64,000 bases of DNA from Eubacteriaceae bacterium (GTDB taxonomy: Bacteria; Bacillota; Clostridia; Eubacteriales; Eubacteriaceae): NCBI GenBank assembly GCA_017405085.1, contig JAFRBB010000052.1, positions 1 through 64,000 on the forward strand, given 5' to 3'. Shown here in pieces: positions 2,813 through 9,713 of this stretch. The notes below the pieces were generated by a model. The model did no database searches, was not told the origin of the DNA, and was given only the letters and a program-made list of their open reading frames with translations. Positions within the stretch are counted from its first letter, which is position 1. Each line of letters starts with the position of its first letter. The translations under genes were made by a program, and so were the position numbers.

Positions 2813-3930
2813 CGCTTATCCTTTCGTGAAATTAATTTGAATTTTCCTCACTGTCAGCGCTTCATCTTCGTGATCGTCAACAGTCAAGATCAATACCTGG
2901 TAAAATGACGCTTTTATGTCTCATTGATGATTTCAAGCCATTATTGGCGAATTTTTGATGCGTTTCGTTTTATAATTTTCTATGTTTTGATATTTTTCTA
3001 TTCGTTTCGTATTATTCTATGATTGTTTTCATCATTTTCATAATGTTTCACAGCCGTGCTTCAGGTGCTTTTACAAATGTAAAAACGATTTTTTGACGTG
3101 CTTTTCCGTTTTTTTCGCCTTTTTAAACCTGCTTCGAATTCGCTTTTTTTGATACTTTTTCACGTTGATATCTCGCGAGATACCAGGACGGTCTTGACCT
3201 CCCGCCTTTCTCTTACATCGCTTCCCTTAACCCCCGAAACACGATTCTGTCTTTTACGCTTTTACAACGTATCGCGAGGAGCCGTGATTTAGGATCACAT
3301 TGCGTGAACCGACATTGGCACATCGGCATTTCGATGACCTTCTATGACTGGCCAACGGGAAAACACATTTTGTAAACTAAATCTGTTCTCCGCAACGTCC
3401 GCCCGCCGGGCTTTTTCCCTGTATCGCTGTTTTCGGGCTGTATTTTCTTTTTCCGAGGCGAAAACGCATTTTAGACCATCTTGTAACCACCCTAAAATCA
3501 AAAGGCTTAAATCAGCAAATAACGACTGCGTCCTTTACGTCTTTCCGCCTGAATATGTCGGCCATCCTCTGCCGCCAAACTATTTTCGAATCATTTTGTC
3601 CCTTTTCTCGTCTGTCGCACCGTTGACTTTAAGACCGTCTTTGGTCCGTCAAACGGTTGCTTTGACTTTTGAACGCGGACTTAACCGCTCGCCTTCGACC
3701 GCAGGTTTGTCCCGAAACTCATCTTCAACGATTTTCCAATCCGAGCTTATGCGTCTGCTCCCACTTCCATCTCCGCGCAGCAGTTTGTCAATTTTGGATG
3801 GCTATCTCGATGTCAAATAACCATCATGATTCCGAAATAAACCGCCATGATTTCAGCCTCGTATCCGGTCTTGATTTCGCCTTCAAGACCCTCCTTCAGC
3901 ATTCAAAACACCGCCGTTTTGAAAACGTTA
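2813..3930. other. Intergenic region between csoR and copA; no convincing gene
   Basis: ORFs here (for example 3344-3820 plus) have no recognisable domain and no good ribosome-binding site. The part from 2940 to 3100 is AT-rich. Visible signals are TACAAATGTA at 3072-3081, which fits the TACANNTGTA consensus of CopY-type copper operators, the perfect palindrome TATCTCGCGAGATA at 3169-3182, and a hairpin TTCAAAAC/GTTTTGAA at 3899-3922 just after csoR without a T-tract. No clear sigma-A promoter for copA was found. Confidence 0.5.
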
Positions 3931-4326
3931 TTACTTCACCATTTTTTGCAGCGTCTTAATCAGCTCGTCGACCTTTTCATCACCCCCGGACAAAATATCA
4001 TCGGTCACGCAGGTGCGGATATGGTTGGCTAACATCACACAAGAAAAACCTTTAAGCGCGGAAGACGCGGCCGAGACCTGCCTGAGCACATCCACGCAAT
4101 AGGCATCACTTTCCACCATGCGTTTTATCCCGCGGATCTGACCCTCAATCCGGCTGAGCCGATTCATCAAATCCTTGATTTCTTTGGGATCCCTGATCTT
4201 TTGTTTCCCGGTGCAGCAGTGCTGTTCGTCCTCCGCAAGCACTGCCGGCTCACCGACTTCAAGGGCAAAGTCATCATCGTTTTTTTGTTCCGGACGTCCC
4301 GCATCCGAAAGCATCACATCTGACAT
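3931..4326 (-). CDS. csoR: CsoR-family copper-sensing transcriptional repressor
   Basis: A small all-helical repressor expected to release DNA when it binds Cu(I). The copper ligands of the family are present with exact spacing: Cys77, His102 and Cys106 (25 and 4 residues apart, as in the founding CsoR). The start chosen is the ATG at 4326 because GGAGGTG lies just upstream; an upstream in-frame ATG at 4422 lacks a ribosome-binding site. The 131-residue product has an acidic N-terminal extension of about 43 residues with an extra His-Cys-Cys (36-38), longer than most CsoRs. Two palindromes typical of CsoR operators overlap and follow its promoter, so autoregulation is likely. copA lies 1.1 kb downstream and is the natural target. 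Confidence 0.93.
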   Translation of the reverse strand: MSDVMLSDAGRPEQKNDDDFALEVGEPAVLAEDEQHCCTGKQKIRDPKEIKDLMNRLSRIEGQIRGIKRMVESDAYCVDVLRQVSAASSALKGFSCVMLANHIRTCVTDDILSGGDEKVDELIKTLQKMVK

Positions 4327-4466
4327 TTTTTCACCTCCGATACCCCCGGGGCACTTCCCTAAAACGCGTCTTGACACTCGCTGAGACCCCTTCAGGACCG
4401 ATACTCTCAAACGCATGCCCATGACGGGATCTGCCGTTTTTTATGTGGGGATTGTTTAGTTTTTAA

Positions 4467-4524
4467 ATACCCCCGTAGGGTATTTTGATAGGGCTATATT
4501 ATACCCTGCCAGGGTATTTGTCAA
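4467..4524 (-). promoter_or_regulatory. csoR promoter with two CsoR-type operators
   Basis: TTGACA (complement of 4519-4524) and TAATAT (4496-4501) are 17 bp apart on the minus strand. The spacer is filled by ATACCCTGGCAGGGTAT (4501-4517), a perfect 8-1-8 palindrome. A second copy, ATACCC-N5-GGGTAT, lies at 4467-4483 just after the expected transcription start. Both match the A/T-flanked CCC...GGG pattern of CsoR copper boxes. Bound CsoR would block RNA polymerase directly. Confidence 0.85.
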
Positions 4525-4609
4525 CACTTTTTTCGCTTTTTTTGGTATTTTTTTACTTTTTCAACTCATTTATATACATTATTTTCATCGACGTTACTTG
4601 TTGTTAAAA

Positions 4610-4683
4610 ATACCCCTCCCCACTATCTGACATACCCTTCTCACCGCTTTTATGATACCCCCGAGACCTATTTCCGAATACCC
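4610..4683. repeat. Array of four ATACCC half-sites with 22-23 bp period
   Basis: ATACCC starts at 4610, 4632, 4655 and 4678, i.e. spacings of 22, 23 and 23 bp (about two helical turns). The hexamer is the half-site of the CsoR operators at 4467-4517. It lies about 90 bp upstream of the csoR -35 box. It may be extra repressor loading sites or a separate element; no gene reads from it. Confidence 0.6.
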
Positions 4684-4762
4684 CCGGCGCTGCCTCGATG
4701 ATCGCGGACAAACCGCGAATCTCCTCCGCCGCCGCTCGCCGGTCAAACCTTGAATCGAGAAC

Positions 4763-4793
4763 AAAAAACACCCGGCGATGCCGGGTGAAAAAA
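4763..4793 (-). terminator. Strong intrinsic terminator
   Basis: CACCCGGC-GAT-GCCGGGTG forms an 8-bp GC-rich stem with a 3-nt loop. On the minus strand it is followed by TTTTTTG. No protein gene precedes it for more than 1 kb on that strand, so it probably ends a non-coding transcript. Confidence 0.8.
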
Positions 4794-5604
4794 GAGAATC
4801 ATTTCTACAATCCGGAAATGAGCGGAAGTTTCCGGGAGCAGTCGGTTGAACCGGCGGCAAAAGTGAATCAAGAAACTTTTGCCCTGTCGTCCCGGAGAGG
4901 AGAACCTTGTTCAAAGCGCCTGGTTGAGAGGTGGAAGGAAGGGATCGGCCGCTTTGAATCCGTGCGTTTTACATATCGATTTTCAATCGTCTCCAGGGGA
5001 GGAAGGAGGAAACGGCAGATGGAAAAACCACCGTTCAAGCCCCCGGAAAGCCATCGATATCTAAAGGCAATCGAATGATGTTGGCATCGATCGTTCCGGG
5101 TAACGAAACGATCGATATGAAAATAAGTTTCGCCGTCAATCGAGGCCGGCTCGTCGGCAATAGAATTTGAGGTGTTGCTCAGAGCTGTAAGCCGGCTCGT
5201 CCGGCGGCAGAAGTTAAATGTCTGGGTGCTTTCTCCCCCGCCCTGACGGAGGAAAAAACGCGATTTGATCAATGATCGGGATCGGGCGATTTTTGACGGA
5301 AAAGCTTTTTTAAGGAAGTTCTATGCATCGTTTTATTCCGTTTGAACATTGGTTTTGGGTTGTTAAATCATTTAATTTGAAAGGAGTGGTTGGGCTCCGT
5401 CAAATATCGCCTTCTCATCAAACGCTTCGCGTTTGCCGAACATATCACAAGATAACAGCCGTATCGAAGAAAAGCTCGTTACAATTTTCGGGCGGTTAAA
5501 ACGCCCCTTGCGCGCTGCGCCCCGCGCGGTGTAGATTGAATCTTTCAGGAAGAGTGCGGCAGTGATGAAGATTGTAAGGATATTCTAACTTCTATGGCTT
5601 GAAA

Positions 5605-5657
5605 AAAAGAAAGCGAAAGCATGGCTTCCTGCGCCTTCTGTGTTTGCGCTTTCTTTT
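5605..5657 (-). terminator. Promoter-proximal hairpin, possible terminator of a short RNA
   Basis: AAAAGAAAGCG pairs perfectly with CGCTTTCTTTT around a loop of about 31 nt that contains a smaller GGC/GCC hairpin. On the minus strand the stem runs into TTT. It begins only about 4 nt after the expected transcription start. It could be the end of a short RNA, an attenuator, or the 5' stem of the longer candidate RNA. Confidence 0.35.
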
Positions 5658-5667
5658 GACGGTTTTT

Positions 5668-5696
5668 ATTGTAAGATACCTCTAACTATTTGTCAA
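5668..5696 (-). promoter_or_regulatory. Strong sigma-A promoter
   Basis: TTGACA (complement of 5691-5696), a 17-bp spacer and TACAAT (complement of 5668-5673) on the minus strand. This is among the best promoters in the window, yet no protein gene follows. Transcription would start near 5661. Confidence 0.8.
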
Positions 5697-5979: not shown

Positions 5980-6702
5980 TTAAAGCGCCCTGTCTGTTTT
6001 ACTCTCTTTTCGCAACATGATAAAGACGATTAAAAACATGAGAGCGACAAAAACCAGGAAAAAGGCAGTCGCTTCATCTGTGCCAAGCATCAGGCACGCG
6101 TCATAGGTCCCATGGAACAGCACGGCCGAAAGCAGCGCCATGACCGACGCGATGAAGCTTCTGAGCTTGTGTCCGCGATTGTGGTGATATTTTGCCCTGC
6201 CGTAAAAATAGCCCATAAATACCGCGAAGCTCATATGGCCGGGAATGGACAGCAGGGCGCGCATCACCGCCGTCTCGAGGCCGTAGCTAAACACGTAGCC
6301 GACATTTTCAAAGGCCGCAAAGCCCAGGGAGACAAACACAGCGTAGACGATGCCGTCAAAACGGTAGTTAAAGGCCGGATGTTTCCAGGTGGTCAGGCGC
6401 ATCAAAAAATATTTTGAGCCTTCCTCCGCCAAAGCGACCACCAAAAACGCCGTGACGAGATTGTACACATCGGTTCCCGGACTCAGCCTCAGATCGAGCA
6501 GCGTCTCCCCCGCCGATTCCAGACCGATGGAAATCAGCGCCGCGATCACCCCCATGACGATCAGCTTGATCAAAAGGCCCACAGGCTCGCTTTCCACCCG
6601 GTCTCTCCGATAGACGGCAATGAGCAAAATCAAAGCCGGCAGCAGCGCCGCCGCCATGTAAATGTAAAAATTTGCGTCCAGATTAAGCCTTTCAAAAATC
6701 AT
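5980..6702 (-). CDS. PrsW-like intramembrane protease (CPBP/PrsW superfamily)
   Basis: A polytopic membrane protein of 240 residues with about seven hydrophobic segments. It keeps the PrsW hallmarks: a Glu-Glu pair (93-94, in AEEGSK), a conserved His in GHMSFAVFMG, and a late HGTYD motif. In Bacillus, PrsW makes the first cut in an anti-sigma factor during the cell-envelope stress response; the substrate here is unknown and no anti-sigma factor is encoded nearby. It starts 12 bp after the MalY-like gene with AAGGGA about 9 nt before the ATG, so the two are very likely co-transcribed. The family call is firm; calling it an active protease is inference. Confidence 0.88.
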   Translation of the reverse strand: MIFERLNLDANFYIYMAAALLPALILLIAVYRRDRVESEPVGLLIKLIVMGVIAALISIGLESAGETLLDLRLSPGTDVYNLVTAFLVVALAEEGSKYFLMRLTTWKHPAFNYRFDGIVYAVFVSLGFAAFENVGYVFSYGLETAVMRALLSIPGHMSFAVFMGYFYGRAKYHHNRGHKLRSFIASVMALLSAVLFHGTYDACLMLGTDEATAFFLVFVALMFLIVFIMLRKESKTDRAL

Positions 6703-9128: not shown

Positions 9129-9183
9129 GTCATAGTTTATCACAAACGAAAATTTTATTCTTTCTAAAAATGGCGAAAAATCA

Positions 9184-9213
9184 TTGACAAGTTTGATAAA
9201 GCAAGCATATAAT
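9184..9213 (+). promoter_or_regulatory. Promoter of the xre-immA-traX operon
   Basis: TTGACA (9184-9189), 18 bp, TATAAT (9208-9213), both perfect. A second CATATAAT follows 13 bp later (9219-9226), giving an alternative -10 box or a direct-repeat operator for the XRE protein. Confidence 0.85.
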
Positions 9214-9275
9214 ACAACATATAATTACTTTTTATTGCATAATCAAATCATTTCATAGTTGAAGAGAGGTAAGTT

Positions 9276-9713
9276 ATGAATTTTAGTGAAAAAGTAAGAG
9301 ACGCCCGGGCCCGTCTCGGGCTGAACCAAAAAGACCTGGCCAACAAATCCGGCATCTCCATCCGAATGATTGCCGCCTACGAAAAAGGCTCGTCTTTCCC
9401 CCAGGCCGCAAGACTCTATAAACTCGCCGAAGCCCTGGAGGTCCCCGCCGAGTATTTGAGAGACGACAATCTCCAATTGAAAGCCCCCCAATACGAAAAA
9501 AGAAACGCGCCTCATTATGCCAATGATGACGCATCTGTCAGCGGTATCGATTTGGAAAAAATGCTTGCCGACAACCGCGCCCTCTTCGCCGGCGGCGCTA
9601 TTGACGACGAAGCCAAGGACATGTATTTTCAAGCTTTGATGCGCGCCTATCTGGAATGCAAAGACGCCGCCAAGCTGCGCGATGCCCTCAATCATTCCAA
9701 CAACCGGTATTAA
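9276..9713 (+). CDS. XRE-family helix-turn-helix regulator
   Basis: A 145-residue DNA-binding protein. The helix-turn-helix lies at about residues 6-60 (NQKDLANKSGISIRMIAAYE is the core). The C-terminal half carries a segment (roughly ALFAGGAIDDEAKD) common in regulators paired with ImmA/IrrE proteases. The ribosome-binding site AGAGAGG lies 6 nt before the ATG. It is followed 3 nt later by an ImmA-like gene. In the ICEBs1 model ImmA cleaves its partner XRE repressor to switch genes on; the same logic is likely here. No integrase or att site was seen, so a mobile element is not shown. Confidence 0.93.
   Translation: MNFSEKVRDARARLGLNQKDLANKSGISIRMIAAYEKGSSFPQAARLYKLAEALEVPAEYLRDDNLQLKAPQYEKRNAPHYANDDASVSGIDLEKMLADNRALFAGGAIDDEAKDMYFQALMRAYLECKDAAKLRDALNHSNNRY

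Follow-up and report, generated by a model that had tools for sequence, protein, structure and literature searches.

A candidate lineage-restricted noncoding RNA gene of about 900 nucleotides downstream of prsW in a Eubacteriaceae bacterium

The OLE RNA has the gene of the OLE-associated protein as a neighbour. ROOL and GOLLD RNAs are noncoding and heavily structured, many GOLLD RNAs exceed 800 nt, and both are described as often lying near tRNA islands in phages and prophages (PMC12286853). The raiA motif, or ModT RNA, is a structured noncoding RNA of Bacillota and conserved in more than 2,500 species (PMC11706538). On a megaplasmid of L. salivarius, RNA-seq has shown a 520-nt lncRNA that is species-restricted and without clear function (PMC5643018). 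The locus described here lies on the minus strand of a 64,000-nt stretch of Eubacteriaceae DNA (positions 1 to 64,000 of contig JAFRBB010000052.1, assembly GCA_017405085.1; in the following the window). Its candidate RNA is large, noncoding and heavily structured like ROOL and GOLLD (PMC12286853), but it has no Rfam match and the window contains no tRNA. It would be a structured noncoding RNA in Bacillota, as raiA/ModT is (PMC11706538), yet no relative was found in the searches described below, in contrast to the more than 2,500 species of raiA/ModT, and no Rfam family fits. With the lncRNA of L. salivarius (PMC5643018), it has in common that it would be a long noncoding RNA of restricted distribution, whereas it is predicted from sequence and a plasmid search gave no match.

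The sequence-only reading had left room for a known type of large RNA and had proposed to look for it with covariance models. As far as Rfam 15 goes, a known type is excluded: its models (OLE, ROOL, GOLLD, raiA and 6S included) gave no match at the gathering score in the whole window. The best sub-threshold match lies over the terminator hairpin and reaches 24.6 bits where 49.5 are needed. Other matches under permissive settings were rejected as look-alikes of terminator hairpins and as chance matches of snoRNA models, and ARAGORN detected neither a tRNA nor a tmRNA in the 64 kb.

Like the gene of a large structured RNA, the unit consists of a promoter and a terminator around a noncoding and unusually structured stretch (Table 1). 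The promoter had been counted among the best of the window and the terminator had been called strong, and both were confirmed at their places: the promoter matches 11 of 12 consensus positions with a spacer of 17 nt, and the terminator, 8 pairs (7 of them G-C) followed by T6, scores far above typical gene ends, the upper quartile of which is d = 19.0. In a 5-kb scan, promoter-like sites were in excess (12 against a shuffle mean of 4.5), whereas terminator-like sites were not (7 against 6.9), which is why both elements were calibrated on 461 kb of the same genome.

Table 1. Features of the candidate unit, and units with Rfam matches found by the same rule in the same genome. Helices are those with a pair probability above 0.7.
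Feature	Position	Strand	Remark
Promoter TTGACA-17-TACAAT	5668..5696	minus	sigma-70-type; start site expected near 5661
20-nt element, first copy	5668..5687	minus	over the -10 region; possibly an operator
Promoter-proximal hairpin, then T run	5605..5657	minus	borderline intrinsic terminator; best part 5638-5609, d = 2.1
20-nt element, second copy (near-repeat)	5571..5590	minus	97 bp downstream
Domain closed by a 6+9 bp helix	5285..5411	minus	GGCGAT/ATCGCC and TTTGACGGA/TCCGTCAAA; A-rich, mostly open loop
14-bp hairpin	5228..5259	minus	G-U pairs included in the minus-strand RNA
13-bp hairpin	5086..5116	minus	loop of 5
Nested helices	4973..5060	minus	8 + 10 + 8 bp
Branched domain	4831..4896	minus	helices of 7 + 9 + 4 bp
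Strong intrinsic terminator	4769..4787	minus	d = 46.9
Predicted full-length noncoding transcript	4763..5661	minus	about 899 nt
SAM riboswitch unit	L153		Rfam match
Four-tRNA cluster unit	L159		Rfam match
tRNA unit	L158		Rfam match
Cobalamin riboswitch unit	L161		Rfam match

The calibration sample comprised the window, the remainder of its contig and four further contig pieces, and genes were called in it with a simple hexamer scorer. Promoter matches of at least 11/12 occur 42 times, 37 of them outside called genes, and six of these 37 reach an intrinsic terminator with d > 18 (a cut-off picked after the list had been seen) ahead of the next called gene. Four of the six units coincide with Rfam matches, the fifth is the unit under study, which has the highest terminator score of all six, and the sixth is about 400 nt long and lies upstream of a galE-like gene (L154 about 9137-9546 minus, or about 49137-49546 of contig C34 of G000; terminator d = 32.3), without a called gene inside and without an Rfam match at E<=0.05. 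The Rfam run covered the window and 14 of 20 background loci, and all six units are within the scanned sources. As the rule of a near-consensus promoter leading to a strong terminator tends to find real noncoding transcription units, it is the main support for reading 4763-5661 as a noncoding gene, and by this calibration within the same genome it is well supported that the stretch is a noncoding transcription unit. The rule recovered four known RNA units and two others without classification in 461 kb, and it is therefore a cheap way to RNAs that lack relatives and so escape comparative methods.

In the 899-nt stretch, neither a coding signal nor a protein family nor the trace of a pseudogene was detected. 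All six frames have codon scores around zero or lower, against about 0.3 throughout a real neighbouring gene; none of the longest ORFs could be assigned to a Pfam, NCBIfam or PHROGs family at E better than 0.28; and the best Pfam match of the six frames read through stops is 13 residues long (E = 0.14). The earlier statement that there is no convincing frame thus stands, with no family match at E<=0.1 for the main ORFs, and a conserved protein, which had been named as one finding that would speak against an RNA gene, was seen neither with these three databases nor in the six frames. Of 3,663 ORFs from the fetched loci (the window's own ORFs left out), a single one matches the gap, over 16 residues (E 0.003), which was taken as chance. 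These data also bear on the idea that the stretch is decayed DNA, the remains of lost genes of which promoter and terminator are still intact. In this genome, long gaps free of ORFs are frequent (16 of 271 are at least 1 kb), and 32 nt resemble (29/32) part of an ABC ATPase gene in G415, its Walker B region, as would fit a decayed gene, but the reading through stops and the one short ORF match argue against it, and an excess of long helices is not expected from decay. We regard this origin as decidedly unlikely.

Such an excess is present. The stretch has five inverted repeats that are 12 bp or longer and contain no more than one mismatch, against shuffle means of 0.48 and 0.33, and five were reached in none of 60 and none of 40 shuffles, so that the many hairpins claimed from the sequence proved real. 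None of the 27 other intergenic regions with a length of 600 nt or more reaches their density of 5.56 per kb, and the second-highest value is 4.04. The full-length minus strand folds with z = -4.3 (20 shuffles) or -3.6 (60 shuffles), and six of 14 overlapping 200-nt minus-strand tiles are below z = -3; by tiles the stretch is not extreme, as 15% of 442 tiles taken from intergenic regions elsewhere also fall under this value. Direct repeats are not beyond chance, the best one being reached in 24 of 300 shuffles. The 11-mer GACGAGCCGGC, which had been pointed out as a duplicated motif, is indeed present twice (5201-5191 and 5155-5145), but the duplication is at chance level: it scores 11, and in 89 of 300 shuffles even the third-best repeat gets that far. 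Anti-Shine-Dalgarno hexamers occur eight times on the minus strand where 3.3 are expected (reached by 21 of 500 shuffles), a weak signal, and Shine-Dalgarno sites of plus-strand genes would look the same.

The plus strand folds as well as the minus strand (z = -3.5 against -3.6), a point that the sequence-only reading had missed, so that folding cannot tell which of the two is used. The structure could in principle be that of a plus-strand RNA or of palindromic sites in the DNA, to which the equal folding and the Shine-Dalgarno-like sites on the plus strand would be suited, but between 4760 and 5780 no plus-strand promoter is above 8/12 and between 4400 and 6000 no plus-strand terminator is above d = -11.8, and we regard a plus-strand element as very improbable.

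Right behind the start site, the early hairpin and its T run have a positive terminator score, as do just five of 200 random 120-nt pieces, although this terminator is weak in comparison with the one at the end of the unit (d = 2.1 against 46.9). As this borderline terminator hairpin directly follows the promoter, a product of about 60 nt may compete with the one of about 900 nt, and it may be that the hairpin ends most transcripts. With up to three mismatches allowed, the 461 kb contain no further copy of the 20-nt element over the -10 region beyond these two. Together, the early hairpin and the repeated -10 element, neither of which the sequence-only reading had mentioned, suggest partial termination and perhaps an operator.

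Taken further, the early hairpin leads to a rather unlikely alternative in which only the short RNA of about 60 nt exists, a small RNA or relic attenuator that stops at the hairpin at 5657-5605, the remaining 840 nt being spacer and the terminator at 4769 shielding csoR. The order of promoter, CCGTCAAAAG, hairpin and T6 is also found upstream of a gene that, from its translation, we take to be PurF-like in two of 39 other genomes of the family (G024 and G011), and a reversed-pattern control had no match in 40 genomes. With a looser form of the pattern, 67 genomes gave 15 matches, against 4 with the reversed control, but most of these 15 have no hairpin that is evident by eye, and a kinship of the 5' end to PurF-like leaders is kept only as a hint. 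The unit resembles these terminator-attenuation leaders in having a promoter, a short leader with CCGTCAAAAG and a hairpin with a T run, but differs in that the next gene on the same strand, csoR, is 1,350 nt away and behind a strong terminator. Against the short RNA as the sole product stands, besides the low score of the hairpin, that the excess of inverted repeats is mostly downstream of it.

On the minus strand, the order is PrsW (5980-6702), the unit, a CsoR-type repressor (3931-4422) and a heavy-metal P-type ATPase (245-2812); an aminotransferase is also among the neighbours, and those scanned belong to families other than the OLE-associated protein. From 6000 to 5660 the minus strand has no terminator above d = -25, and after prsW a score of d > 5 is not reached before the terminator that ends the unit. 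Because prsW has no terminator before the unit, a long 3' UTR of the prsW operon is a serious rival: transcripts from upstream would cross 5979-4769, and the promoter at 5696 would add to them, prsW and the genes above it being on the same strand as the unit. This leaves unexplained, however, why a near-consensus promoter is situated 283 nt behind prsW, and the other 11/12 promoters of this genome mostly lead to a gene or to an RNA already known; a mere 3' UTR is in our view quite unlikely.

CsoR has its own promoter-like site (4524-4496) behind the terminator of the unit. Upstream of csoR, the plus strand carries four half-sites of the ATACCC(C) type (4604-4690), in addition to two palindromic sites (about 4468-4516) that resemble copper operators; both palindromes, as well as the first of the half-sites, can be aligned with G001, the only other assembly of the genus. 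Between csoR and the P-type ATPase gene, a gap of 1.1 kb that likewise lacks called genes (2813-3930) shows no unusual folding or inverted repeats.

Searches with blastn found no homologue of the stretch in overlapping sets of 61 relatives, 40 genomes of the family, 67 of the order and 391 of the class; in two genomes of the genus, at E up to 10, all matches were weak. Three models (R1 to R3) yielded no homologue in 67 genomes, phage and plasmid searches gave no match, four exact patterns were not found in viral contigs, and 80 PrsW loci from genome contigs contained no significant blastn match. Several candidates were rejected: weak blastn matches at query positions 836-875 are within coding DNA beside a DnaX-like gene; matches in G043, G400, G415 and G421 are short, and the last three, for which ORFs were listed, overlap long open frames; an R2 match in G033 (E 0.023) is mostly within an open frame of 528 codons; and R1 matches in nine other genomes (E 0.05-0.88), one of which (L182) was inspected, were dropped as chance.

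In G001, the csoR contig aligns at about 70% up to window position 4632 and then stops, some 330 nt upstream of the match; the prsW match begins at the end of a different contig, which ends inside the gene. The stretch falls in the assembly gap of G001, which therefore can show neither its presence nor its absence, but as csoR and its upstream DNA align at about 70% up to the break, a sequenced syntenic relative should be alignable.

We give about even credence to the reading that 4763-5661 is a noncoding RNA gene restricted to this lineage, in which the early terminator is leaky and the long product is structured. RNA polymerase would start near 5661 at the near-consensus promoter of the minus strand, some transcripts would end after about 60 nt at the weak hairpin terminator, and the others would proceed to the strong terminator at 4769 and form a structured RNA about 900 nt long. 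Such an RNA would most likely act in trans, as a regulatory or scaffold RNA. A specific targeting, in which C/U-rich and partly unpaired stretches pair with ribosome-binding sites, as the anti-Shine-Dalgarno hexamers weakly hint, is rather doubtful, and so, slightly more, is the reading of the unit as a new class of structured RNA of about 900 nt that is limited to one poorly sampled genus, with a leaky 5' terminator and possibly a repressor at the two 20-nt sites. If transcribed, the unit would add another orphan to the large bacterial RNAs, a size known mainly from OLE, ROOL and GOLLD.

Some further observations concern the genome at large. A short intergenic region elsewhere in the genome (C29 45419-45889, or L162 5419-5889) has no Rfam match and folds very strongly on the minus strand (lowest z -7.6). 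The Clostridiales-1 RNA (RF01699) is present in three copies in 140 kb (L157 1729-1886, L157 12788-12948 and L161 18982-19139). In the window itself, an ORF of 10,552 codons with repeated domains (11643-43301 minus) apparently encodes a giant surface-type protein.
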